Assembly: GCF_003667545.1 (NCBI RefSeq)
Contig: NZ_RCUV01000020.1
Location: forward strand, 1-64,000
Direction: 5' to 3'
Source of the DNA: Mycetocola manganoxydans
GTDB lineage: Bacteria > Actinomycetota > Actinomycetes > Actinomycetales > Microbacteriaceae
DNA: 64,000 bases
Each line of letters starts with the position of its first letter. Positions within the stretch are counted from its first letter, which is position 1. The position numbers were made by a program, and so were the translations under genes. Shown here piece by piece: positions 37,767 through 64,000 of the stretch. The notes below the pieces were generated by a model. It was not told where the DNA came from, ran no database searches, and was given only the letters and a program-made list of their open reading frames with translations.

Positions 37767-38413
37767 TGACGACCATCAATGAAACCAGACCCCGGATGCC
37801 GCGAGCGTTCCGGCTCGCTTCGCTGACAGCGATCGCCGCGATGCTCGCGGCCGTCTTCATGGCGAGCGGCACACAGCCCGCCCGAGGACACGACTATCTG
37901 GTCTCCGCGTCCCCTGCAGCCGACGCCACGATTGAAAGCCCGCTCACCAGTGTGTCGCTGACGCTGAGCGAAGCGCCCCTGGAAGGTCTGGATACGAGCT
38001 CGTACATCTCAGTTGTGGCGGCCGACGGACGGACGGCTTCGGCGGAGGAGGTCATCCTCGAGGGTTCAACGTTGTCGGTGCCGGTAACGTTCGGGAACCC
38101 GGGTATCTACACAGTGACCTGGCAAACCGTGTCATCCGACGGGCACCCAATCTCCGGCAGCTACTCCTTCACATGGCTCAGCAACGGGGAAGGAGAATCT
38201 AGCGCTCCGACGGCAACGAGTTCGCCAATCCCGTCAGCCACCGAAACGCCGTCGACGCCGGCTGCGCCAGCCGAGGCTGGAGATAGTTCATCTGCGGTCG
38301 GAGTCCTCTTCTGGGCAGCGGCACTCGTCTTGTTCCTGGGATTGGGCGCCACCGCCTACCTCGTATTCCGGGCGCAGAGGCGGAGAGCCCAAGATTCGGG
38401 CAGAGCACCATGA
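37766..38413 (+). CDS. CopC domain protein with C-terminal membrane anchor
   Basis: A 215-residue exported protein. The signal sequence ends near ARGHDYLV, giving a mature protein with an early His as in CopC copper sites; a second His occurs in SSDGHPISGSYSF. A Thr/Pro/Ser-rich linker leads to a C-terminal helix (LFWAAALVLFLGLGATAYL). It binds copper outside the membrane and works with CopD. The gene is coupled to its neighbours by overlapping starts and stops. Confidence 0.9.
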   Translation: MTTINETRPRMPRAFRLASLTAIAAMLAAVFMASGTQPARGHDYLVSASPAADATIESPLTSVSLTLSEAPLEGLDTSSYISVVAADGRTASAEEVILEGSTLSVPVTFGNPGIYTVTWQTVSSDGHPISGSYSFTWLSNGEGESSAPTATSSPIPSATETPSTPAAPAEAGDSSSAVGVLFWAAALVLFLGLGATAYLVFRAQRRRAQDSGRAP

Positions 38414-39015
38414 GGAAGGTCACCGGCATACGTGGGCTTGCGTCGGCGGGGATCGCCCTCGCTCTGGCGCTCACCGTCTCGGCGTGCTCACCGAACGATC
38501 CGCTCTCCGAACAGTATCTGGAGGGAAGTAACAAGGGGTACATCGCCGGCGACGGTTCCGTAACCGAGATCCCTGTCGACGAGCGCACCGAAGCGATCAC
38601 ATTCGACGGGGTCGACGAACACGGGAAACCGTTCAACTCGGCCGAGTTCGCAGGCGAAGTCCTCGTGGTGAACTTCTGGTATGCCGGCTGCGCTCCCTGC
38701 CGGGCCGAGGCTCCACAGCTTCAAAGCCTGTGGGAAGAGTATTCGCGCCAGGGTGTGCAGTTCGTCGGCGTCAATGTTTACGACCAACCTGACACGGCGA
38801 TCTCATTCAACGAGACCTACGGGATCACCTACCCGTCGATCATCGACGTCGGCACCGGTGCAGCGAAACTGGCGTTCACGGGGACGGTCCCGCCACAGGC
38901 CGTTCCGACCACTCTCGTGCTCGACAGGGACGGTCGTGTCGCCGCTCGGATCCTTGGACAATTGCCCGACGAATCAGTCCTATCCACCCTGATCAAAGAC
39001 ACCGTCGCAGAATGA
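38410..39015 (+). CDS. TlpA/ResA-like thioredoxin lipoprotein 1
   Basis: A 201-residue lipoprotein. The lipobox Cys is residue 26 (TVSACS), and the thioredoxin active site is Cys94-Ala-Pro-Cys97. It should reduce disulfides of apocytochrome c or copper chaperones outside the membrane, receiving electrons from a CcdA protein. The sequence EQYLEGSNKGYIAGDGS near the N-terminus is also found in TlpA 2 at 61769-62356. The ATG overlaps the copC stop by four bases. Confidence 0.92.
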   Translation: MRKVTGIRGLASAGIALALALTVSACSPNDPLSEQYLEGSNKGYIAGDGSVTEIPVDERTEAITFDGVDEHGKPFNSAEFAGEVLVVNFWYAGCAPCRAEAPQLQSLWEEYSRQGVQFVGVNVYDQPDTAISFNETYGITYPSIIDVGTGAAKLAFTGTVPPQAVPTTLVLDRDGRVAARILGQLPDESVLSTLIKDTVAE

Positions 39016-39090: not shown

Positions 39091-40119
39091 ATGAACGCCG
39101 ATATTGACGGCCCGGTCTGGGTCCCCACCCTGCCGCCAAGCTTTGAGCAGCTCCTCGCGCCCAACCTGCAACCCATCCCACTTCTCCCGGCGATCGCCCT
39201 ACTGCTCGCGACGGCATACACAATTGGTGCCATCCGGTTGTGGATGCAAGGACGGCGCTGGTCAGTTATCCGCACCATCTGCTTCCTGATCGGCTGCACC
39301 CTTCTCGCGGTCGTAACCGGTGCGGGTATTGAGGGATATGGCTATGAACTGTTTTCAGTCTTCATGTTCCAACAGCTAACCCTGATGATGGTTGTCCCGC
39401 CGCTTCTTATCCTCGGCTCACCCGGAACACTGCTGCTGCGAGCAACACCGCACGGCGGGCTTGGGCGGACAACCCTGCGAGTCGCCCTCGGCGCTTTGCG
39501 CTCGCCTGCCGCACGACTTGCAGTGCACCCGGCGACGGTAATCCCGCTTGCGGCGCTGAGCTACCTGGGACTGTACTTGACCGGCGCAGCCGATGTTCTT
39601 CTTCGCACCTGGATCGGTCACGTCGGTCTGGAGATCGCGTTCTTGTGCATTGGCATTCTGGTGGCGACGCCGCTGATTTCAGCCGACCCGCTTCCGCGAC
39701 GAACGTCCTTCGTGTTTCGTGTGGTCGACACGTTCGCGGAGATGCAGATCCACGCGATCTTGGGATTGGTGCTGATGCTGACCCACACTCCCATCATTCC
39801 GTTCTTCGCCACCATCCCGGAGTCGTGGAACATCGATCCGGCGATCGACCAGTCCGCGGCCGGCATCCTCGCCTGGACCTACGGAGAGCTTCCTCTGCTG
39901 ATCATTCTGATCGTCACGCTCTCCCGGTGGGAACGACGCGACACCAGACAGGCGACCACGATGCAAGCCCTTAACGACGCCGAACTGGATGAATACAACG
40001 AGTACCTCCGCCGGCTGAGTCCGGACACGACGCAGCCGACGCCGACGCACAGCGACGGCGCTTCGTCCGCTTCCGCGCCGCCCGAGGCGCGCCCCCACAG
40101 TAAGGCGCAACACGAATGA
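39091..40119 (+). CDS. CtaG-type cytochrome oxidase assembly protein
   Basis: A 342-residue membrane protein with about seven helices of the caa3 CtaG family (MFQQLTLMMVVPPLLILGSP, then ADPLPRRTSF, then TYGELPLLIIL). CtaG proteins deliver copper to cytochrome oxidase. A second CtaG domain is in the fusion protein at 35850-37766. The 55-residue C-terminal tail is polar and Pro/Ser-rich. Its stop overlaps the ccdA start by four bases. Confidence 0.88.
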   Translation: MNADIDGPVWVPTLPPSFEQLLAPNLQPIPLLPAIALLLATAYTIGAIRLWMQGRRWSVIRTICFLIGCTLLAVVTGAGIEGYGYELFSVFMFQQLTLMMVVPPLLILGSPGTLLLRATPHGGLGRTTLRVALGALRSPAARLAVHPATVIPLAALSYLGLYLTGAADVLLRTWIGHVGLEIAFLCIGILVATPLISADPLPRRTSFVFRVVDTFAEMQIHAILGLVLMLTHTPIIPFFATIPESWNIDPAIDQSAAGILAWTYGELPLLIILIVTLSRWERRDTRQATTMQALNDAELDEYNEYLRRLSPDTTQPTPTHSDGASSASAPPEARPHSKAQHE

Positions 40120-40865
40120 ATCCCGGAACAATAGTGATGGACGGGCAACTCCTGCTTGCCGTTCTGGTGGCACTGCTGGCGGGGCTCGTGTCATTCGCGT
40201 CCCCGTGCGTCCTTCCACTGGTGCCCGGCTACCTGGGCTATGTCGGCGGCATGTCCACCGCAAGCCCGACGGATGCGGGCCTTCGCGCCCGAAAACGAGT
40301 TGCGCTCGGAGCGGCGCTATTCGTCCTCGGGTTCTCCGTCGTCTTCGTCACGCTCGCCGCATTCGCCGGAACAATCGGCTCCTTCGTCATCCAATGGCAG
40401 GATCTGATCACCCGCATCCTCGGCGTCGTCGTGATGCTGATGGGCCTCGTCTTCATTGGACAGGTGTCGTTCCTTCAGCAATCACTCAAGACGTCCTTCC
40501 GGCCTGTTACCGGGCTTGCCGGTGCCCCGCTTCTCGGCATGACATTCGCCATCGGTTGGACGCCGTGCTTCGGACCGGCGCTCGTGGCAATCAGCGCCCT
40601 GAGCCTTGAAACCGGGTCCGTCTGGCGCGGCGCCCTGCTGGGGTTCGTCTACTGCGTCGGTCTGGGCATCCCGTTCATCCTCATCGCTCTGGGCTTCAAC
40701 TGGGCCACGGCAGCGACCGGGTTCTTCCGTCGGCACATCAGGGCAGTGAACCTCGCCGGAGGCGCCCTCCTGCTTCTTCTCGGGCTTTTCATGGTCAGTG
40801 GTCTGTGGGGACGCCTCATGTCCTCACTTACCGGAGTCATCGGCGGATTCACGACCCCGATTTGA
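40116..40865 (+). CDS. CcdA-type thiol electron transporter 1
   Basis: A 249-residue membrane protein with six helices. The two redox cysteines are in [16 protein letters not shown] (residue 31) and [11 protein letters not shown] (about residue 150). It carries electrons from cytoplasmic thioredoxin to TlpA-type proteins outside. It is one of two intact copies in the window; a third is only a remnant. The ATG overlaps the ctaG stop. Confidence 0.92.
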   Translation: MNPGTIVMDGQLLLAVLVALLAGLVSFASPCVLPLVPGYLGYVGGMSTASPTDAGLRARKRVALGAALFVLGFSVVFVTLAAFAGTIGSFVIQWQDLITRILGVVVMLMGLVFIGQVSFLQQSLKTSFRPVTGLAGAPLLGMTFAIGWTPCFGPALVAISALSLETGSVWRGALLGFVYCVGLGIPFILIALGFNWATAATGFFRRHIRAVNLAGGALLLLLGLFMVSGLWGRLMSSLTGVIGGFTTPI

Positions 40866-44747: not shown

Positions 44748-46334
44748 TCAACCACGGAGGCGGTTCTTAACTCGCATCGCGAGGAAACCGGCCGCGGCGA
44801 ACCCGGACAGACCGCCAAGCACGGTGCCCAGTTCGATTACCTGCCCGGCCGCCATCGCCGGCGTGATTGTGGTGCTCAGTGGCACGCTCTGTACCATCGC
44901 TCCGGGTGTGAAGGTGGGCAGCCGGTCGATGGTGCTCCCGTCCGGGCCTATCATGGCGGACGTCCCGACCGTGGAGATGTTCACCACGCTGCGTCCGGCC
45001 TCGATGGCGCGCAAGCGCGCTATAGCTAGTTGCTGGGCGCTTTGGTCGGTGCGTCCAAAGTCGGCGTTGTTCGTGGGCGCGAGGATGACCTCTGCACCGC
45101 GACCGACCATCTCCCGGATCAGGGTGTCGTCCACGATGTCAAAGCAGATGGCAAGCCCGGCCTGCACCCCGTCGATGTCGAAAACATTCGGTCGTTCCCC
45201 GATGGAGAAGTCCCTCGGGATGAGAGAAAACAGCTCCGGCGCTAACGGGTACCAGAAATCACGGTCGGGTAGGTACTCAGCGAACGGAACGGGATGCTTC
45301 TTGTCGTACTGCGCCTTCGCCCCGATGCCCACCTCCCACAGCAGCAGGCTGTTGAACATCTCTTCGTCGGTCTGCGTCACGGTACCGACGACAACGGGTG
45401 CATCCATCCGTGCGGACACCAGGTCGAGTGCGGCAGCTGCGGCAGGATACTCCAGCGGGTTGAGGTCGGAGGCGTTCTCCGGCCACACCACCAGGTCTAC
45501 CGGTTCGTCGAGGACCGGAATGGTTGCGGCGACGTGGTCGTTAAGGATCCGTCCCGGCTGGTTCGCCGCGAGCAGACCTGCGTCCGAGTTGCCTTGGACG
45601 GCCGCGACCCGAAGTTTCCCGGTTTCCTGGACAGGGAACGGCGGAACGGCTGCAAGCCCCACGAGCGCAACCGCGGCGACCGCGAACACTGCGCGTGGGC
45701 GTCCGGCGCGGGCGGTCCGGGCGGTTTGGACCACAAGTGCGCTGACCCAGGCGATGAGGAAGGATAGTCCGGCAACGCCCACCCACGCAGCCAGATCACC
45801 GTAAGGGCTTTCCGATTGGGAGAATGCGAGCCGGCCCCAGGAGAAGCCACCGTACGGCCAGTTGCTTGTGACATACTCGCGGGCCGTCCACAACGCGGCT
45901 ATCACGACAGGCGTCACCCCTGACCGAAGCCAGGGCCGCACGAATACCGCATCGGTGGTGCGCCAGGCAAGAGCGATGACGACCGCTCCGGCGGTGAGGA
46001 GCACCGTTTCCAGGCCGGTCAGCGCCGCCCATGGGGCCGGCCCGAGGTACACGGTCAGCCAAAAAATATGGGTGCCGAGGAACGTGGCCCCGCCGAGCGC
46101 GCCGGCCCCGACCGCAACCCAGGTTCGGCGGGCGGTGAGGCTTGCCAGCAGCAGCGGCGTGCCCACGAAAATGAGCGGCCACCAACCGGCGCTGGGGAAC
46201 GCGAGCGCATTCAGCACTCCGCCGACCGCGGCCGCGGCGAGAGGCCCCCACACTCCCGTTGGGACGACGCGGCGTCGTATCGGCGTTGTCGGCAGGGGTG
46301 GGGTGTCGAGGTCAGTCAGTGTGGGCATTGACAT
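44748..46334 (-). CDS. lnt: apolipoprotein N-acyltransferase
   Basis: A 528-residue membrane enzyme that adds the third acyl chain to lipoproteins. The N-terminal half has about seven helices; the C-terminal half is a nitrilase domain outside the membrane. The catalytic triad is visible: Glu (about 286, VVWPENAS), Lys (about 345, QYDKKHPVPF) and Cys (about 396, LAICFDIVDD). GGAAG precedes the ATG. It is the only Lnt in the window and sits directly downstream of a tlpA remnant, beside several lipoprotein genes, so it may process the island's own lipoproteins. Confidence 0.92.
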   Translation of the reverse strand: MSMPTLTDLDTPPLPTTPIRRRVVPTGVWGPLAAAAVGGVLNALAFPSAGWWPLIFVGTPLLLASLTARRTWVAVGAGALGGATFLGTHIFWLTVYLGPAPWAALTGLETVLLTAGAVVIALAWRTTDAVFVRPWLRSGVTPVVIAALWTAREYVTSNWPYGGFSWGRLAFSQSESPYGDLAAWVGVAGLSFLIAWVSALVVQTARTARAGRPRAVFAVAAVALVGLAAVPPFPVQETGKLRVAAVQGNSDAGLLAANQPGRILNDHVAATIPVLDEPVDLVVWPENASDLNPLEYPAAAAALDLVSARMDAPVVVGTVTQTDEEMFNSLLLWEVGIGAKAQYDKKHPVPFAEYLPDRDFWYPLAPELFSLIPRDFSIGERPNVFDIDGVQAGLAICFDIVDDTLIREMVGRGAEVILAPTNNADFGRTDQSAQQLAIARLRAIEAGRSVVNISTVGTSAMIGPDGSTIDRLPTFTPGAMVQSVPLSTTITPAMAAGQVIELGTVLGGLSGFAAAGFLAMRVKNRLRG

Positions 46335-52145: not shown

Positions 52146-52180
52146 AGGGGGTGGGGTCGTTCCCCTACGGTCCCACCCCT
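52146..52180. terminator. GC-rich hairpin after the DUF305 gene
   Basis: AGGGGGTGGG (from 52146) can pair with CCCACCCCT (52172-52180) with one bulged G. It follows the DUF305 stop by 60 bases and precedes the tlpA remnant. There is no U-tract. Confidence 0.35.
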
Positions 52181-52209
52181 CCCACTTCTGCCACACGGGG
52201 AGGGGGATG

Positions 52210-52293
52210 GCCTCTCGAACCCTCGGCCACCTACCCGCCGAATCCGTCCTATCAACACTCATCCGAGAAACACGCAAGGAGCCGACCAACTGA
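52210..52293 (+). pseudogene. 3' tail of a tlpA-like gene before ccdA 2
   Basis: In the frame ending TGA at 52291 the codons read [18 protein letters not shown], then RETRKEPTN. Intact TlpA 1 ends with [18 protein letters not shown] and then KDTVAE, so most positions agree. Similarity is lost upstream of 52207. The ccdA 2 ATG follows at once, so an ancestral tlpA-ccdA pair has lost nearly all of tlpA. Confidence 0.78.
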
Positions 52294-52294
52294 T

Positions 52295-53056
52295 ATGAAC
52301 CCTGGATCGATCATCATGGACGGACAGCTGCTTCTCGCTATCCCGCTCGCCCTGCTTGCTGGGCTCATATCGTTCGCGTCACCCTGCATTCTCCCGTTGG
52401 TGCCCGGATATTTGGGGTACGTCACTGGGATATCCGGAGGGCCCATCAGTCGCACGGAATCGTCCGCTGCCGCTATCTCCCGGTTCCGACCTGCGTTCGG
52501 CGCGCTGCTGTTTGTGCTCGGATTTTCTGTCGTCTTCGTCCTGATCTCGGCATTCGCGGGCACGATCGGTGCGACTCTCATCCAATGGCAAGACCCGCTC
52601 ACCCGGCTCTCCGGAATCGTTGTCCTCGTCATGGGACTGGTTTTTATCGGACAGGTCTCCTTCTTCCAGCGAACCCTGAAGATCCTATTCCAGCCCCGGA
52701 CCGGACTGGCAGGAGCTCCTCTCCTGGGGATGATCTTCGCAATCGGTTGGACACCCTGCTTCGGCCCGACCTTGATCGCCATCAGCGCATTGAGTCTTCA
52801 AACCGGGTCTTCGGGACGCGGTGCCCTGCTTGGCCTTGTCTACTGCCTCGGTCTGGGCATCCCATTTCTCGCCCTCGCACTCGGTTTCGGCTGGGCGACC
52901 CGATCCGTCGCCCTCCTCCGTCGCCACATCCGCAGTGTGAACGTTGTTGGAGGGTTGATGCTTATCCTTCTCGGCCTTGTGATGATCAGCGGCATATGGG
53001 GGGTCATCATGTCCCGGCTGGGAGCAACGATCAATGGATTTTTGCTACCGCTCTAG
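52295..53056 (+). CDS. CcdA-type thiol electron transporter 2
   Basis: A 253-residue six-helix protein closely similar to CcdA 1 (both begin MNPG and contain MDGQLLLA). Redox cysteines are in [16 protein letters not shown] and [11 protein letters not shown]. It should supply electrons to TlpA-type proteins. Its former tlpA partner is reduced to a tail just upstream, so it must serve a TlpA encoded elsewhere, for example the one at 61769. Confidence 0.92.
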
Positions 53057-57388: not shown

Positions 57389-57551
57389 CGCCCGCGGGGA
57401 CGAGGCATGTGCCACCCGACCCGGGTCCCCGTCGCGCGCCGGCGGGGCTCGTTTCATTTACGCCCGCTGTCCGCCCACAGCCGTTCCCTCGCTGTTGAAC
57501 GGGAGCAAGGCCGGTACCCTCGAAGGATCCCCCGCACACCCGGAAGGACCC

Positions 57552-58379
57552 ATGACTATCAACCTGCCGATGACCCGGCCGGACACTCGCCGGGCGGCCA
57601 GCTGGAACCTGCTGCCCGGCGTGCTCCTGGCGGCATCCGGCTTGTTGCTCTTCGGGCTGCATTGGCGACCGGGCGGATACTTCATCCTCGCCGCTGCCCT
57701 CCTTGCCGCCGTTCTGGTGAACCGCGCCCTCGCCAAGGACCTGTTTCTTATCGGGGCCGGTCTCGTCATCATCAGCCTCGTCGAGATCAACACCGATATC
57801 TCGTGGGACCACATGCTGGTGATGGGGGTCGCCCTCGCTGCAGCGGTGATCCTGCCTTATCTGGTTTCCCGATTCCTGTACCGTGACCACGCCATCCGGT
57901 TCCCGGTCCTGACCGGGAAGCGCTGGACGCGGGTTGAGTTCTGGTACCTCGTCGCCGTGCTCGTGCTCGGCTGGTTCCTCCTGCCGGTGTACATGATTTC
58001 CACCGGCGTCTTCGAGAATTGGCCGGCGGCAACCGACCCCTCGTCCATCGGCCGGTTGTTCCTCGGCACCAATGCCCTGGGCATCTGGGACGAGTTGTTC
58101 TTCATCTGTACGTGCTTCACCCTGCTGCGTCGGCACTTTCCAGACTGGCAGGCGAACGTTCTGCAGGCTGTGCTCTTCACGTCGTTCCTGTGGGAACTTG
58201 GCTTCCAATCCTGGGGTCCATTCCTCATCTTCCCTTTTGCGCTCGTCCAGGGCTGGATCTTCAAGCAGACGAAATCGCTTTCCTACATCGTCAGTGTCCA
58301 TCTCCTGTTCGACTTCGTCCTGTTCCTCGTGCTGCTGCACGCGCACAACCGCGATTGGCTGGGTTTGTTCCTCTATTGA
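57552..58379 (+). CDS. CPBP-type intramembrane protease-like protein
   Basis: A 275-residue protein with about eight helices. A DELFF motif in helix 5 (IWDELFFICTCFTLLRR) and His/Asp in SVHLLFDFVLF resemble the catalytic motifs of CPBP (Abi) membrane proteases, but the usual double Glu (EExxxR) is Asp-Glu here. GAAGGA precedes the ATG at 57552, and GGTACCCT upstream could be a -10 box. Its substrate is unknown. Confidence 0.65.
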   Translation: MTINLPMTRPDTRRAASWNLLPGVLLAASGLLLFGLHWRPGGYFILAAALLAAVLVNRALAKDLFLIGAGLVIISLVEINTDISWDHMLVMGVALAAAVILPYLVSRFLYRDHAIRFPVLTGKRWTRVEFWYLVAVLVLGWFLLPVYMISTGVFENWPAATDPSSIGRLFLGTNALGIWDELFFICTCFTLLRRHFPDWQANVLQAVLFTSFLWELGFQSWGPFLIFPFALVQGWIFKQTKSLSYIVSVHLLFDFVLFLVLLHAHNRDWLGLFLY

Positions 58380-58764: not shown

Positions 58765-59766
58765 CTACAGGCCCGAGTAGGCGTGCAGACCCTTGAAGAA
58801 CAGGTTGACCACGGAGAAGTTGAACATCACGGCCAGGAATCCGATGATCGCCAGCCACGCCGAGCGCGATCCGCGCCAGCCGCGAGTGGCCCGCGCGTGG
58901 ATGTAGCCCGCGTAAATTACCCAGATGATGAAGGTCCAGACCTCTTTGGTGTCCCAGCCCCAGTAGCGACCCCAGGACCGCTCCGCCCAGATAGCGCCCG
59001 CGATGAGGGTGAAGGTCCAGAGGATGAATCCGACGATGTTCGTGCGGTAGGCGAGATTTTCCAGATGTGCAGCCGTCGGCAATGTCGCGAGGAACTTCAG
59101 CCGGAGCTTAGTGAGGTCCTCCCCGCCGACCTCACGACGGTGCTGCACGAGCTGCAGCACGGAGAGAGCGAACCCGAGGGCGAAGAACGCGGTGCCTGCG
59201 GAGGCGACGAAGACGTGGACCACGAGCCAGGCGGACTGGAGTGCGGGTGGCAGTGGCATGATTTCGACGTAGTAGTCGACTGCCGCGATGCCGAGCAGCG
59301 CGAGGACGAGACCGGTGATGAAGGTGCCGAGGAACCGCAGGTCGATCCGGAGCAGAACGACGAGGTAGACCGCGATGATCAGCAGTGTGCCGGTGAGCGC
59401 GAACTCGTACATGTTTGCCCACGGCACTCGGCCGGCTGCGACACCGCGTGTGATTGTGGCGACCAGGTGCAACAGGAAACCGAGAACCGTGAGCGCGAGT
59501 GCGACTCGGAGTACCGGCGAGTGCCGCGCCTGGACCTGCGGGGCGTCGCTGTCCGTGCGGGCCAGAGTGGTCACCGGGCGGCCCGAAACTATTTCACCCC
59601 TCGCCTCCGTGGCTTCGAGCGTCGATGCCGTGGCTGCTGCCTTGGTGGCGGCGGCCGTCACGTCGGCTGAGCGTCGGGCGAGGTCCAGCGCGAACGCGAT
59701 AAAGGCGAGCATGTACATCGCCATGGCCGACCAGAGCGATAGCACGGACAGTTCATTCAGATCCAC
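58765..59766 (-). CDS. ccsA: cytochrome c assembly protein CcsA/CcsB
   Basis: A 333-residue membrane protein with about eight helices. The haem-handling WWD motif is clear (WAERSWGRYWGWDTKEVWTF), flanked by conserved His residues. With ResB it forms the system II machine that moves haem out and attaches it to apocytochrome c. The start is GTG. It is the last gene of the minus-strand cluster ATPase-tlpA-(ccdA remnant)-resB-ccsA, separated from resB by 190 bases in which nothing else was recognised. Confidence 0.93.
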   Translation of the reverse strand: MDLNELSVLSLWSAMAMYMLAFIAFALDLARRSADVTAAATKAAATASTLEATEARGEIVSGRPVTTLARTDSDAPQVQARHSPVLRVALALTVLGFLLHLVATITRGVAAGRVPWANMYEFALTGTLLIIAVYLVVLLRIDLRFLGTFITGLVLALLGIAAVDYYVEIMPLPPALQSAWLVVHVFVASAGTAFFALGFALSVLQLVQHRREVGGEDLTKLRLKFLATLPTAAHLENLAYRTNIVGFILWTFTLIAGAIWAERSWGRYWGWDTKEVWTFIIWVIYAGYIHARATRGWRGSRSAWLAIIGFLAVMFNFSVVNLFFKGLHAYSGL

Positions 59767-59956: not shown

Positions 59957-61639
59957 TCATCGCTGTAGGCCGAGAGCAGTGCCGTGTCGGAAGGCGAGGG
60001 CGTCAACGGCCTCACCCAATCCGGGGTCCTCACCGCGGGCCAGACCGGCGTACTCCACCCGTACCGTGCCGTCCGCGTTGTCTGTCGCCTTGATCCATAC
60101 CCGCCGGCGCGGGACGAACAGCGAGGTCAGTAACCCGCCGAGGATGAGGATCGCGAAGGTGAGCACCCAGCCCACGGTCGGGTCGGTGTGGACATCGAAG
60201 GACGCGAAGCGGGCAACGGAACCGGCGTAGTCAGTGGTCGTAGCGTCCTGATCAGCGGGTGCCCCGGCATCCGGATTCACGTTCTCAAAGGTGATCGTGC
60301 CGCGCCCGTCCGGCAGTTCCTGGCTCTGCCCAGGCATCAACTCGATCGAATCCACGCCCGACTCGCCGCCGCTCAATTGCGTCATGTCATCCACGTTGAG
60401 CTCGTACACCGACTTCGGGGCGCCGTCGTTGATGCCGAGGTCCCCCGCGAACACATTGAGCGTCAGCACCGGGAAGACGAGGTCAGGGTACGTGGAGGTG
60501 TACGCGCCGGTCTCCATCTTGTAAGCCGTGGGATAGAGGAAGCCGATCATGCCGATCTGCTCGTCCAGCCCGTCGGGGATCTTGATCACGCCGAGGGAGG
60601 TCAGGTTGCCGTCCTGCGGAAGGAAAGGAACGGAATCAGTCCAGACCACGCTGCCCTCCGGGTCGCGGACCGTGATCTTAGGCGCGTACCCGTTGCCGAG
60701 CAGGTAGATGTCGGCGCCCTCAAACCGGAGCGGGTCGTTCACCCTGACGACCCGCTTCTCGGTCTCGCCAGTCGGCAACCGCATGGTGACCCGAGTGGTG
60801 AAGTCGATCGGCTGGCCATACGCGTTAAGGTTTTTCTGCTCGTAGGTCACGTCGAATTTGTCGAGCGTCATGGCGAACGGTGCGAGGTCGTCCGGGTTGT
60901 AGAACCGCCCGGGGTTGAACGAGTTGTAGTCCAGCAGAGTATTGACGAAAGTCTGTCCCTCGACGATGACCCGCTGAGCGGCATATCCGAATCCGCCGCC
61001 GATCCCGACGGTGAGGAGCATACCGACGAGCGCCGAGTGGAAGACCAGGTTGCCGGTCTCTCGGAGGTACCCGCGCTCGGCTGAGACCGACACGTCACCG
61101 TTCCGGCCCTGGTAGAGCTCGGTCCGGTAGCCGGACTTCTTGAGTAGCGCGTGCGCCGACTCGATCGCGGTACCGGCGTTACCACCCTCGAGGGTGACCT
61201 CGGTGTGCGCGGCGAGGCGCTGAAGCCGGGCAGGGGTGCGCGGCGGACGCGACCGCATCGCCTGGAAGTGGTGCTTCGTGCGAGGGATCACGCAGCCAAT
61301 CAGCGACACGAACAGCAGCAGGTAGATGCTCGAGAACCAGACCGAACCGTAGACGTCGAACATCTGGATACTCTCGAGCATCGGCGCGAGATCGGGATTG
61401 TTGTCGAAGTACTGGATGACACCGTTCGGGTCCGAACTGCGCTGCGGCACCAGCGACCCGGGCACCGCCGCGACCGCCAGCAGCAGCAACAGCAACAGCG
61501 CCGTGCGCATGCTCGTCAGTTGCCGCCAGATGAACCTCAGCGTGCCGACGAAACCGAGCTTCGGCTGGACGATACCGTCGCCGGGGCCCTCCGCCTGGGG
61601 ACGGGCCCCGGCGTCAACGTAATCAGATGGTCGTGACAT
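59957..61639 (-). CDS. resB: cytochrome c assembly protein ResB
   Basis: A 560-residue protein with three N-terminal helices (TALLLLLLLAVAAVPGSL; VWFSSIYLLLFVSLIG; LVFHSALVGMLLTVG), a large extracytoplasmic domain, and one C-terminal helix (VGWVLTFAILILGGLL). It is the ResB/Ccs1 partner of CcsA in system II haem attachment. Its ATG lies inside the last codons of the degraded ccdA, preserving what was a normal overlap between the two genes. Confidence 0.93.
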   Translation of the reverse strand: MSRPSDYVDAGARPQAEGPGDGIVQPKLGFVGTLRFIWRQLTSMRTALLLLLLLAVAAVPGSLVPQRSSDPNGVIQYFDNNPDLAPMLESIQMFDVYGSVWFSSIYLLLFVSLIGCVIPRTKHHFQAMRSRPPRTPARLQRLAAHTEVTLEGGNAGTAIESAHALLKKSGYRTELYQGRNGDVSVSAERGYLRETGNLVFHSALVGMLLTVGIGGGFGYAAQRVIVEGQTFVNTLLDYNSFNPGRFYNPDDLAPFAMTLDKFDVTYEQKNLNAYGQPIDFTTRVTMRLPTGETEKRVVRVNDPLRFEGADIYLLGNGYAPKITVRDPEGSVVWTDSVPFLPQDGNLTSLGVIKIPDGLDEQIGMIGFLYPTAYKMETGAYTSTYPDLVFPVLTLNVFAGDLGINDGAPKSVYELNVDDMTQLSGGESGVDSIELMPGQSQELPDGRGTITFENVNPDAGAPADQDATTTDYAGSVARFASFDVHTDPTVGWVLTFAILILGGLLTSLFVPRRRVWIKATDNADGTVRVEYAGLARGEDPGLGEAVDALAFRHGTALGLQR

Positions 61640-61760
61640 AGCCGTTGATCAGCTCTCCAACCCGTGGCATGAGCGTTCCCCCGGGACCCGCCCCGCCACT
61701 CGAGCGATCGGAATGGCCGCGAACATCCGGCCGTTGAGGGGCGATTCCACCTGAATTCAT
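61624..61760 (-). pseudogene. ccdA remnant with large internal deletion and frameshift
   Basis: The start region reads ATGAATTCAGGTGGAATCGC; skipping one C gives MNSGGIALNGRMFAAIPIA, matching CcdA N-termini ([19 protein letters not shown]). The end, in another frame, encodes PRVGELINGYVTTI and a stop, matching CcdA C-termini ([14 protein letters not shown]). Only 137 of about 760 bases remain, and both redox cysteines are gone. It sits between tlpA 2 and resB, the usual place of ccdA. Confidence 0.85.
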
Positions 61761-61768
61761 AATGCGTC

Positions 61769-62356
61769 CTACTCGTCGATCGCGTCGCTGACAAGCGTAC
61801 TGAGGATGGATGCTTCCTTCAGCTGGCCAAGGATGCGGGCTGAGACCCGGCCCTCCTTGTCGAGGACAATCGTGGTCGGGACTGCTTTCGGCGGCACCGT
61901 TCCTGTGAAGGCGAGCTTCACGGCACCGTCCTGGACGTCAAGGATCGACGGGTAGGTGATGCCGTACGTTTCGTTGAACGAGAGCGCCGTGTCCGCCTGG
62001 TCGTAGACGTTGACGCCGATGAACTGCGCACCTTTGCCGTCGTACGCGGCACTGAGCTCCTGCAGGTCCGGTGCTTCGGCCCGGCAGGGGGCGCATGCGG
62101 CGTACCAGAAGTTGACGACGAGCACCTCACCGGCGAAGTCGACGGAGGAGATCTGGTCGCCACCCTCTGTGGTGCCGGAGAAGCTGATCGACTCGCCCCG
62201 CTCGGCCTCGGGAATTTCGGTCACAGATCCGTCGCCCGCGATGTATCCCTTGTTACTGCCCTCTTTGTATTGCTCGGCGAGGGGGTCGCTGGCGCAGCCG
62301 GTAAGAAGCAGCGCGGCGGCGATTCCGATCGCCGCCGCTCGCATCCGTCGCGTCAT
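61769..62356 (-). CDS. resA: TlpA/ResA-like thioredoxin lipoprotein 2
   Basis: A 195-residue lipoprotein. The lipobox Cys is residue 21 (LLTGC) and the active site is Cys88-Ala-Pro-Cys91. In a cluster with resB and ccsA it should reduce the haem-binding cysteines of apocytochrome c (the ResA role). It needs electrons from CcdA, but the ccdA next to it is broken. Its ATG overlaps the ATPase stop by four bases, and a tail like its own is found at 46353. Confidence 0.92.
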   Translation of the reverse strand: MTRRMRAAAIGIAAALLLTGCASDPLAEQYKEGSNKGYIAGDGSVTEIPEAERGESISFSGTTEGGDQISSVDFAGEVLVVNFWYAACAPCRAEAPDLQELSAAYDGKGAQFIGVNVYDQADTALSFNETYGITYPSILDVQDGAVKLAFTGTVPPKAVPTTIVLDKEGRVSARILGQLKEASILSTLVSDAIDE

Positions 62357-64000
62357 ACCGCCCGCACGTCGGCGGGACTCGCCGCGAAAACAGCCGCGGG
62401 GTTGGTGTGGCTGATGTCGGGGGTACGTGCGGCTCGGAGGCCGTTGAGGATGACGATCACTTCGGCGATCTCGTGGACGAGCACGACCGCGGCAAGCCCG
62501 AGGACACCAAAGAGCGCGAGCGGCAGAAGTACGACGATGATCAGCAGCGACAGGACGATGTTCTGGTTGATGATGCGCCGGCCCCGGCGAGCGTGGTCAA
62601 ACGCGCGAGGAATGAGTCGCAGGTCGTGGCCCGTGAAGGCCACGTCGGCGGACTCGATCGCCGCATCGGAACCGGTCGCGCCCATCGCGATGCCGATGTC
62701 CGCCGCCGCCAGGGCCGGGGCATCGTTGATGCCATCGCCGATCATCGCCGCAGGCGCGACGGCCGTGAGTTCCGAGATCGCCGCGGCCTTATCCTCCGGG
62801 CGCATCTCGGCCCGCACGTCGGTGATCCCGGCCTGCGCTGCGAGAGCGTGGGCGGTGCGGACATTATCGCCGGTCAGCATGGTCACCCCGATGCCCTGAC
62901 CGGTCAGAGTGCGAACGACCTCCGGCACTTCCGGGCGCAGCTCGTCGCGCACACCGATCGCACCGACATGCTCGCCGTCGCGGTGCACAATCACCACCGT
63001 CATGCCCTGCTCTTCCAGGCTTGCGACACGATCGGCCAGGGCGCCCGGGTCAAGCCAGCGGGGACTGCCGACCGTGATCGTGATGCCATCGACGACGCCC
63101 TGGATGCCGTGCCCGGCGAGTTCGGTGACATCAGCGGCCGCGGGAGTATCGGGGGCGGCGGCAGCGATCGCGGTGGCGAGAGGATGGGTGCTGTGTTGCT
63201 CCAGCGCGGCCGCCCAGCCCAGCACCTGGTCTACGTCGGCCCCGTCGACGGTGAGCACAGCAGTGACGGTCGGCTTGTTGCGGGTGAGGGTACCGGTCTT
63301 ATCGACTGCGACGTGGCGCACGCCGCCGAAGCGTTCGAAGATTGCGCCGGACTTGATGATCACACCGAACTTGCTGGCTGCTCCGATCGCCGCGACGACG
63401 GTGATCGGGACCGAGATCGCCAGCGCGCATGGGGACGCGGCCACCAGCACCACCAATGCTCGGGTGATCCATAGCTCCGGGTCGCCGAATAGCGACCCGA
63501 TCACTGCGACGAGGGCGGCGAGGATCAGCACTCCCGGCACGAGCGGCTTCGCGATCCGATCTGCGAGCCTGGCTCGGTCGCCCTTCTCGGCCTGGGCGCG
63601 CTCGACGAGCTCCACGATCGTTGTCAGCGAGTTGTCGGTCCCGGCCGCGGTCGCCTCGACCTCCAGTGCGCCGGCGATGTTGATCGCACCAGCTGAGACC
63701 GGGTGGCCGGGCTCGACCTCGACCGGGATTGATTCACCGGTGATCGCAGACGTATCCAGGCTGCTTTGCCCGGAATGCACGACCCCGTCGGTCGCGATCC
63801 GTTCACCGGGGCGCACCAGCATCAGCTGCCCCGCTTTGAGCTCCCTCGCGGGAATCTGCGTGGCAGTCCCATCGGTCAGGACGGTTGCCGTTTCCGGCAC
63901 GAGCTTGAGCAGCGCCCGGAGACCACCGCGGGCGCGGTCCATCGCCTTGTCTTCCAGCGCTTCGGCGATTGAGTACAGGAAGGCTAGCGCGGCGGCTTCC
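62353..64000 (-). CDS. SPC-type P1B heavy-metal ATPase, N-terminus outside window
   Basis: The frame is open to the right edge; 548 residues are visible. Motifs: TGESIPVEV, SPCALAISVPI (transport motif SPC rather than CPC), DKTGTLTRNKP and GDGINDAPAL. The last helix region contains VLVHEIAEVIVILNGLR. SPC with a His-Glu in the final helix points to the P1B-4 group (Co, Ni, Fe or Zn export) rather than copper. The stop overlaps the tlpA 2 start. The metal is not settled without the missing helices. Confidence 0.88.
   Translation of the reverse strand, partial: EAAALAFLYSIAEALEDKAMDRARGGLRALLKLVPETATVLTDGTATQIPARELKAGQLMLVRPGERIATDGVVHSGQSSLDTSAITGESIPVEVEPGHPVSAGAINIAGALEVEATAAGTDNSLTTIVELVERAQAEKGDRARLADRIAKPLVPGVLILAALVAVIGSLFGDPELWITRALVVLVAASPCALAISVPITVVAAIGAASKFGVIIKSGAIFERFGGVRHVAVDKTGTLTRNKPTVTAVLTVDGADVDQVLGWAAALEQHSTHPLATAIAAAAPDTPAAADVTELAGHGIQGVVDGITITVGSPRWLDPGALADRVASLEEQGMTVVIVHRDGEHVGAIGVRDELRPEVPEVVRTLTGQGIGVTMLTGDNVRTAHALAAQAGITDVRAEMRPEDKAAAISELTAVAPAAMIGDGINDAPALAAADIGIAMGATGSDAAIESADVAFTGHDLRLIPRAFDHARRGRRIINQNIVLSLLIIVVLLPLALFGVLGLAAVVLVHEIAEVIVILNGLRAARTPDISHTNPAAVFAASPADVRAV

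Follow-up and report, generated by a model that had tools for sequence, protein, structure and literature searches.

A captured cytochrome c maturation cluster in Mycetocola manganoxydans that has lost ccdA and probably works with CcdA supplied in trans

A System II cytochrome c maturation cluster on a metal-resistance island of Mycetocola manganoxydans (genome G000; 3.06 Mb, 32 contigs) retains tlpA, resB and ccsA, and its ccdA is broken. We analysed it in a window of 64,000 nucleotides, positions 1 to 64,000 of contig C8. The most probable explanation, in our assessment, is that a slice of a housekeeping locus was captured, that its ccdA was lost and tlpA-resB-ccsA remained selected, and that the module is active with CcdA supplied in trans. 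The cluster is a third copy and a backup, not an essential dependency.

System II consists of ResA/TlpA, CcdA, ResB/CcsB and ResC/CcsA, with CcdA described in PMC9145763 and PMC3884852 as passing electrons to ResA/TlpA. In the C8 cluster, on the reverse strand throughout, three of these members are present and the in-cluster CcdA is absent. The ResA-like thioredoxin gene tlpA (61769–62356) overlaps with its start the stop of a preceding metal ATPase gene and encodes 195 residues with a CXXC motif (CAPC) and Redoxin/AhpC-TSA domains. The resB gene (59957–61639) encodes 560 residues that match PF05140 over profile positions 1–485 of 486 (E 3e-135), and ccsA (58765–59766), corresponding to resC, encodes 333 residues with a PF01578 match (E 1.4e-44) and the WGRYWGWD motif. 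The three genes, the tlpA being the one numbered 2 in the initial annotation, had been described there as looking intact, and all are indeed whole, with the expected domains and motifs. What departs from the known system is a ccdA reduced to 138 nt and the position of the cluster as a third copy on a metal island. Beside it, on the forward strand, lies a Mycetocola-type gene for an Rce1-like (CPBP) protease (57495–58379), with 85% nucleotide identity to Mycetocola sp. RYN_94 and a relative at 80% on contig C1 of the same genome; the island has thus picked up a second core-like gene. Protein F510 matched no Pfam family.

The ccdA remnant (61623–61760, reverse strand) comprises roughly the first 23 and the last 22 codons of the gene. 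From the old start codon at 61760 to the old stop at 61623 it spans 138 nt, against 747 nt including the stop for the intact ccdA of RYN_94 (G003), a net loss of 609 nt, and its stop overlaps the resB start (61639) as in intact clusters. In alignment, the 70 nt on the 5' side match one end of intact ccdA genes and the 3' piece matches the other. The best local alignment scores were 52 for the 5' piece (with Mycetocola miduiensis, G001) and 50 for the 3' piece (with G003), compared with top scores of 36 and 35, respectively, among 300 block-shuffled controls; against more distant ccdA genes, single pieces scored within the range of the controls, as did the 3' piece when aligned to the copy on contig C6 (25). 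Missing from the remnant is the middle of the gene with both cysteine-containing motifs, which are the catalytic motifs of CcdA. The reading frame shifts within the remnant and the deletion compensates for this, so that 45 codons can be read without interruption between the former start and stop codons. The earlier description of a ccdA reduced to its two ends, with a frameshift, is thus borne out, the frame change being compensated by the deletion. This open frame may preserve translation coupling to resB, and at such a length it could also be open by chance.

An assembly artefact was rejected as the source of the broken ccdA because, in addition to the deletion, many substitutions in the remnant are private to it. 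Of 398 family genomes, six of them from the genus, 69 gave some match to this region and its flanks, and no match other than the genome's own crossed the deletion point; with a search at the DNA level and no more than two candidates scored in each genome, a deletion shared with a distant genus could escape notice. Among these 398 genomes, the loss of ccdA so far appears private to M. manganoxydans.

By its homology, the C8 cluster is a slice of the Mycetocola housekeeping locus, nearest to M. miduiensis and RYN_94 and distinct from the resident copy on C6. Nucleotide identity over the cluster is 85.7% to RYN_94, 84.0% to M. miduiensis, 81.2% to the C6 cluster and 78.4% to the cluster on contig C28. 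In the tree of concatenated tlpA, resB and ccsA, C8 splits from the rest together with M. miduiensis and RYN_94 (support 90), with C6 outside (83), and the resB tree likewise places C8 with these two species (95) and C6 outside. The tlpA tree is weakly supported (57), and in the ccsA tree C8 adjoins C28, apart from a group of M. miduiensis, RYN_94 and C6 (82). Duplication of the resident C6 cluster was ruled out by the identities together with the concatenated and resB trees. A search of plasmids recovered no near-identical copy of the whole cluster.

One end of this slice can be located within the gene preceding tlpA. This gene encodes a P-type metal ATPase (62353–64000, reverse strand, continuing to C8:64329) and stands at the head of the presumed operon; an ArsR gene heads the group just outside the window (C8:64302–64661). 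Homology to Mycetocola starts near 62408 and homology to other ATPase genes stops near 62421, which brackets a junction at about 62408–62421. The last 17 or so codons of the ATPase gene (62353–62408) are an in-frame tail of gpm, the histidine-phosphatase gene that precedes tlpA in Mycetocola: the C-terminal residues ...HTNPAAVFAASPADVRAV align, in the same frame, with the C terminus encoded by gpm of RYN_94, ...YTDPAGVLAAGATDVGAV. From this we conclude that a gpm-tlpA-ccdA-resB-ccsA slice was joined to a foreign ATPase gene. The ATPase gene with its gpm tail is itself a gene fusion created by the capture junction.

Of 150 family genomes, 25 contain relatives of the ATPase, its own genome included (E 1e-180). 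At this threshold there was no match in G001, G002 or G005, and at most short DNA matches (up to 363 nt, 66–81%) were found in the five other genus genomes, which include Mycetocola zhadangensis (G004). In 28 retrieved stretches of about 5 kb, an ArsR gene always lay near the ATPase gene, and tlpA lay near it at two places, C8 and one place in G022 (L118); one further place shows a ccdA (L110) and another a resB (L114). The sequence thus shows that a slice consisting of the gpm end, tlpA, ccdA, resB and ccsA was captured onto the metal-resistance island, that an illegitimate junction fused it in frame to the end of the ArsR-linked ATPase gene, and that the captured ccdA subsequently lost its middle. 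Two further observations concern the surroundings. A DUF3093 gene (C8:65945–66490) lies not far from the ATPase gene, and the same kind of gene follows resB at four other loci (L080, L081, L082 and L132), at which the stretch shows no ccsA match or annotation. At the contig end, a MobA/VirD2-type relaxase gene (C8:72936–74576, L013) suggests a mobilisable element beside the metal genes.

To compare the fate of the remnant with that of its neighbours, we counted private changes, defined as C8-only differences at sites where C6, M. miduiensis and RYN_94 agree. In the remnant these affected 5/33, 7/39 and 8/22 sites at codon positions 1, 2 and 3, respectively, and in tlpA, resB and ccsA together 30/957, 29/1016 and 94/550. 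At first and second positions combined, the remnant had changed at 12/72 sites (16.7%) and the three genes at 59/1973 (3.0%; one-sided Fisher test, 3.5e-6), a contrast that rests on small remnant counts, with 72 informative first and second positions. Over nearly the same ccdA stretch, the control lineages had changed at 2/72 (M. miduiensis), 1/71 (RYN_94) and 4/74 (C6) of these positions, counted with two references each. The most constrained of the three genes was tlpA, with 2 changes at 345 first and second positions.

Codon-based maximum likelihood on eight sequences and 1075 codons gave an omega of 0.047 on the C8 branch and 0.044 elsewhere (2dlnL 0.15). By gene, the values on C8 and elsewhere were 0.024 and 0.048 for tlpA (2dlnL 2.64), 0.059 and 0.035 for resB (4.79), and 0.046 and 0.052 for ccsA (0.19). 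The raised resB value is a hint of mild relaxation and speaks against a fully unrelaxed cluster. Fixing the C8 omega at 0.10, 0.15 or 0.28 lowered the log likelihood by 11.8, 26.8 and 55.8 units, costs that were nearly unchanged under a second topology. The divergence of the remnant corresponds to a neutral time of about 0.4–0.5 on a branch of 2.0. Given this drift and the low omega of its neighbours, the latter were under constraint for much of the period that followed the break in ccdA; within the small remnant counts, the comparison of substitutions thus shows purifying selection keeping tlpA, resB and ccsA for some time after the loss.

These rates bear on a simpler account, in which the whole C8 cluster is a decaying redundant copy, ccdA was the first gene to go, and the others have kept their frames through chance or through the recency of the loss. 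The two complete clusters elsewhere in the genome would make the copy redundant, the loss has been seen in no other genome, and the raised resB omega points in the same direction. A neutral phase as long as the 16.7% change in the remnant implies would, however, predict an omega of about 0.2–0.3 for the neighbours, at the likelihood costs given above, and purifying selection on tlpA, resB and ccsA after the loss is hard to square with a dead cluster. We therefore consider decay largely refuted by the rates, on small remnant counts, and unlikely overall.

The genome contains four CcdA (DsbD_TM) genes above the cut-off, two of them in the window, one on C6 and one on C28. Within the window, ccdA1 (40116–40865, forward strand, 249 residues) belongs to a gene row copD-copC-tlpA1-ctaG-ccdA1, with tlpA1 at 38410–39015 on the same strand, and ccdA2 (52295–53056, forward strand, 253 residues) lies in a copper island. 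Both had been noted as intact, and both are whole and exceed the DsbD_TM cut-off. One of them had also been described as orphaned from its own tlpA, in agreement with a remnant of a tlpA 3' end that precedes ccdA2 (52153–52281, forward strand) and resembles the last 44 residues of TlpA1 (48% identity, E 8.6e-8 for a 1.8-kb region). The ccdA2 gene is thus what survives of a broken tlpA-ccdA pair; on C28, a complete tlpA-ccdA-resB-ccsA cluster occupies the space between the DUF305 and CopB-type ATPase genes. The genome in fact carries two related copper islands (window 48000–57000 on C8, and C28:61000–77000, L012), which share CsoR, CopZ, CopA, DUF305 and CopB types with 70–77% nucleotide identity in their aligned parts. 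A second, partial ccsA match lies on C28 just past the CopB-type gene (L012, 14736–14964; pieces of 68 and 87% identity).

ResB was found at three places in the genome (C6, C8 and C28), and CcsA likewise at three. In the C6 cluster, each of the four genes tlpA, ccdA, resB and ccsA has an uninterrupted frame with the domains expected of it; the cluster is flanked by a histidine-phosphatase gene on one side and by enolase-like and enoyl-CoA-hydratase-type genes on the other, here labelled gpm, menC and menB, and past these comes a gene for a class II tRNA synthetase. This is the housekeeping site, with the same gene order in M. miduiensis (L079). On C28, a complete tlpA-ccdA-resB-ccsA cluster lies between a DUF305 gene and a CopB-type ATPase gene in the copper island. 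In each of the five genus peers there is a single ResB, with one or two DsbD_TM matches. A c-type cytochrome client, found in a search with the Cytochrome_CBB3 family, is a 277-residue open frame with two such domains (C25:129565–130059); among the genes called on contig C8, no CXXCH motif was seen.

The initial annotation had proposed that cytochrome c synthesis in this cell depends on the island genes ccdA1 or ccdA2, and had itself named a complete tlpA-ccdA-resB-ccsA cluster elsewhere as grounds against this; the genome has two, on C6 and C28, each with its own ccdA. Both island genes are intact, as that proposal supposes, but the CcdA of C6 is far closer to the CcdA of the clusters nearest to C8: its identity to the RYN_94 and M. 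miduiensis proteins is 93.5–94.4%, compared with 85% for C28 and 65–66% for the products of ccdA1 and ccdA2. By that criterion, a dependency of the cell on the island genes is refuted. What survives is the more general idea of CcdA in trans, which the selection after the loss favours for this cluster, with C6 in place of ccdA1 and ccdA2 as the best-matching possible, and probable, donor.

A further reading would let the C8 cluster work with no CcdA at all, its TlpA being reduced in some other way or needing no reduction. PMC9145763 and PMC3884852 indicate that the loss of CcdA or ResA in Bacillus subtilis is suppressed by inactive BdbC/BdbD or by a reductant, and a bypass is thus conceivable. 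Yet among the three proteins TlpA shows the strongest constraint (omega 0.024 on the C8 branch), and it has kept its CAPC motif; and with four intact CcdA genes in the cell no such route is needed; we regard this reading as improbable. The strong constraint on TlpA makes a CcdA-free mode unlikely; supply of CcdA in trans is the simplest answer. Our model is that the C8 TlpA-ResB-CcsA set most likely still matures cytochrome c, its TlpA being re-reduced by a CcdA encoded elsewhere, probably that of C6. CcdA of B. subtilis is described in PMC9145763 as reducing StoA too. Since ArsR and ATPase genes head the gene row, we infer that it is metal-induced, and the module would probably be co-expressed with the metal pump, raising cytochrome c maturation under metal stress. 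With two complete clusters present, no need for a third is evident.

To place this cluster in a wider context, we surveyed ResB in the family and on plasmids. ResB was present in 79 of 80 family genomes, at 91 places, with at least two places in 10 genomes. We inspected 12 places taken as extra, beyond one per genome; for four genomes (G022, G036, G045 and G000) the housekeeping place was read as well, and for six (G011, G030, G040, G064, G070 and G079) the copy was assumed to be extra, partly since it had no adjoining ccdA. Copper-type genes lay within the stretch read at 10 of the 12 (the exceptions being L082 and L087) and at none of five housekeeping-site loci (L011, L079, L088, L091 and L092), an association in a small sample whose labels (CopA, CopB, CopC, CopZ and CsoR) come from tblastn with proteins of the window, the weakest being a CopC match of 31% at L090.

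A DsbD_TM match lay downstream at five of the 12 extra places, 2.7–3.4 kb from resB (start to start). Overall, 15 of the 91 ResB places had no DsbD_TM match within 1 kb on the same strand, including five in genomes without any such match (probable model misses) and one at a contig end. On plasmids, ResB occurred in 94 of 72,556 records. Five of the six plasmid places read were beside metal genes, the exception being Pseudarthrobacter, and three of the six, in Cryobacterium arcticum, Cnuibacter and Pseudarthrobacter, had no annotated ccdA in the stretch, in gene tables that are incomplete. The member that is displaced or absent is thus ccdA in more than one case. Genes for lipoprotein processing (signal peptidase II, lgt and lnt) recur beside resB or tlpA on metal plasmids (L129, L130, L131 and L133), and an lnt gene is found in the C8 island (window 44748–46334). 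In open-licence literature, searched by title and the start of the abstract, we found among the matches listed no paper on additional System II clusters that lie on actinobacterial copper islands.

The C8 cluster thus combines features of several known arrangements. It shares gene order, sequence and a gpm tail with the housekeeping gpm-tlpA-ccdA-resB-ccsA locus, as found in Corynebacterium glutamicum (cg0519–cg0524), on C6 and in M. miduiensis, but has an ATPase gene in place of gpm, which is reduced to the fused tail, lacks the men genes, and has its ccdA deleted. Similarly, it resembles the island and plasmid clusters of Micrococcales (for example C28 and those on plasmids of Microbacterium sediminis, Leifsonia shinshuensis and Arthrobacter sp. 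FB24) in having an extra resB beside metal genes. In those clusters resB is often accompanied by tlpA, ccdA and ccsA, and the position of ccdA varies; C8 differs in being of the Mycetocola housekeeping type, with its capture junction within the ATPase gene. In B. subtilis, resABC lie together and ccdA is located elsewhere on the chromosome. C8 would likewise be a resA-resB-resC set whose CcdA comes from elsewhere, but here a deletion within a captured copy brought about the split, and the cell retains complete clusters.

In C. glutamicum under excess copper, expression data in PMC3140484 (Table 1) give a 236-fold increase for tlpA and increases of 3.6- to 4.6-fold for hemL, a phosphoglycerate mutase gene, a periplasmic thioredoxin gene, ccsA and ccsB. 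One could tentatively suppose that, in Microbacteriaceae, System II modules are kept in reserve on metal islands as part of metal tolerance, C8 being a metal-induced TlpA-ResB-CcsA set that shares a chromosomal CcdA, although we would not yet call this generalisation likely. The cluster is a natural example of CcdA being lost from among partners that stayed under selection, an argument that System II copies can share a CcdA, and it shows a route by which a housekeeping cytochrome c maturation locus can enter a metal-resistance gene row. The family pattern, with extra System II copies beside copper genes, fits the harm done by copper to cytochrome c assembly, as reported in PMC6247083, citing Durand et al. 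2015.
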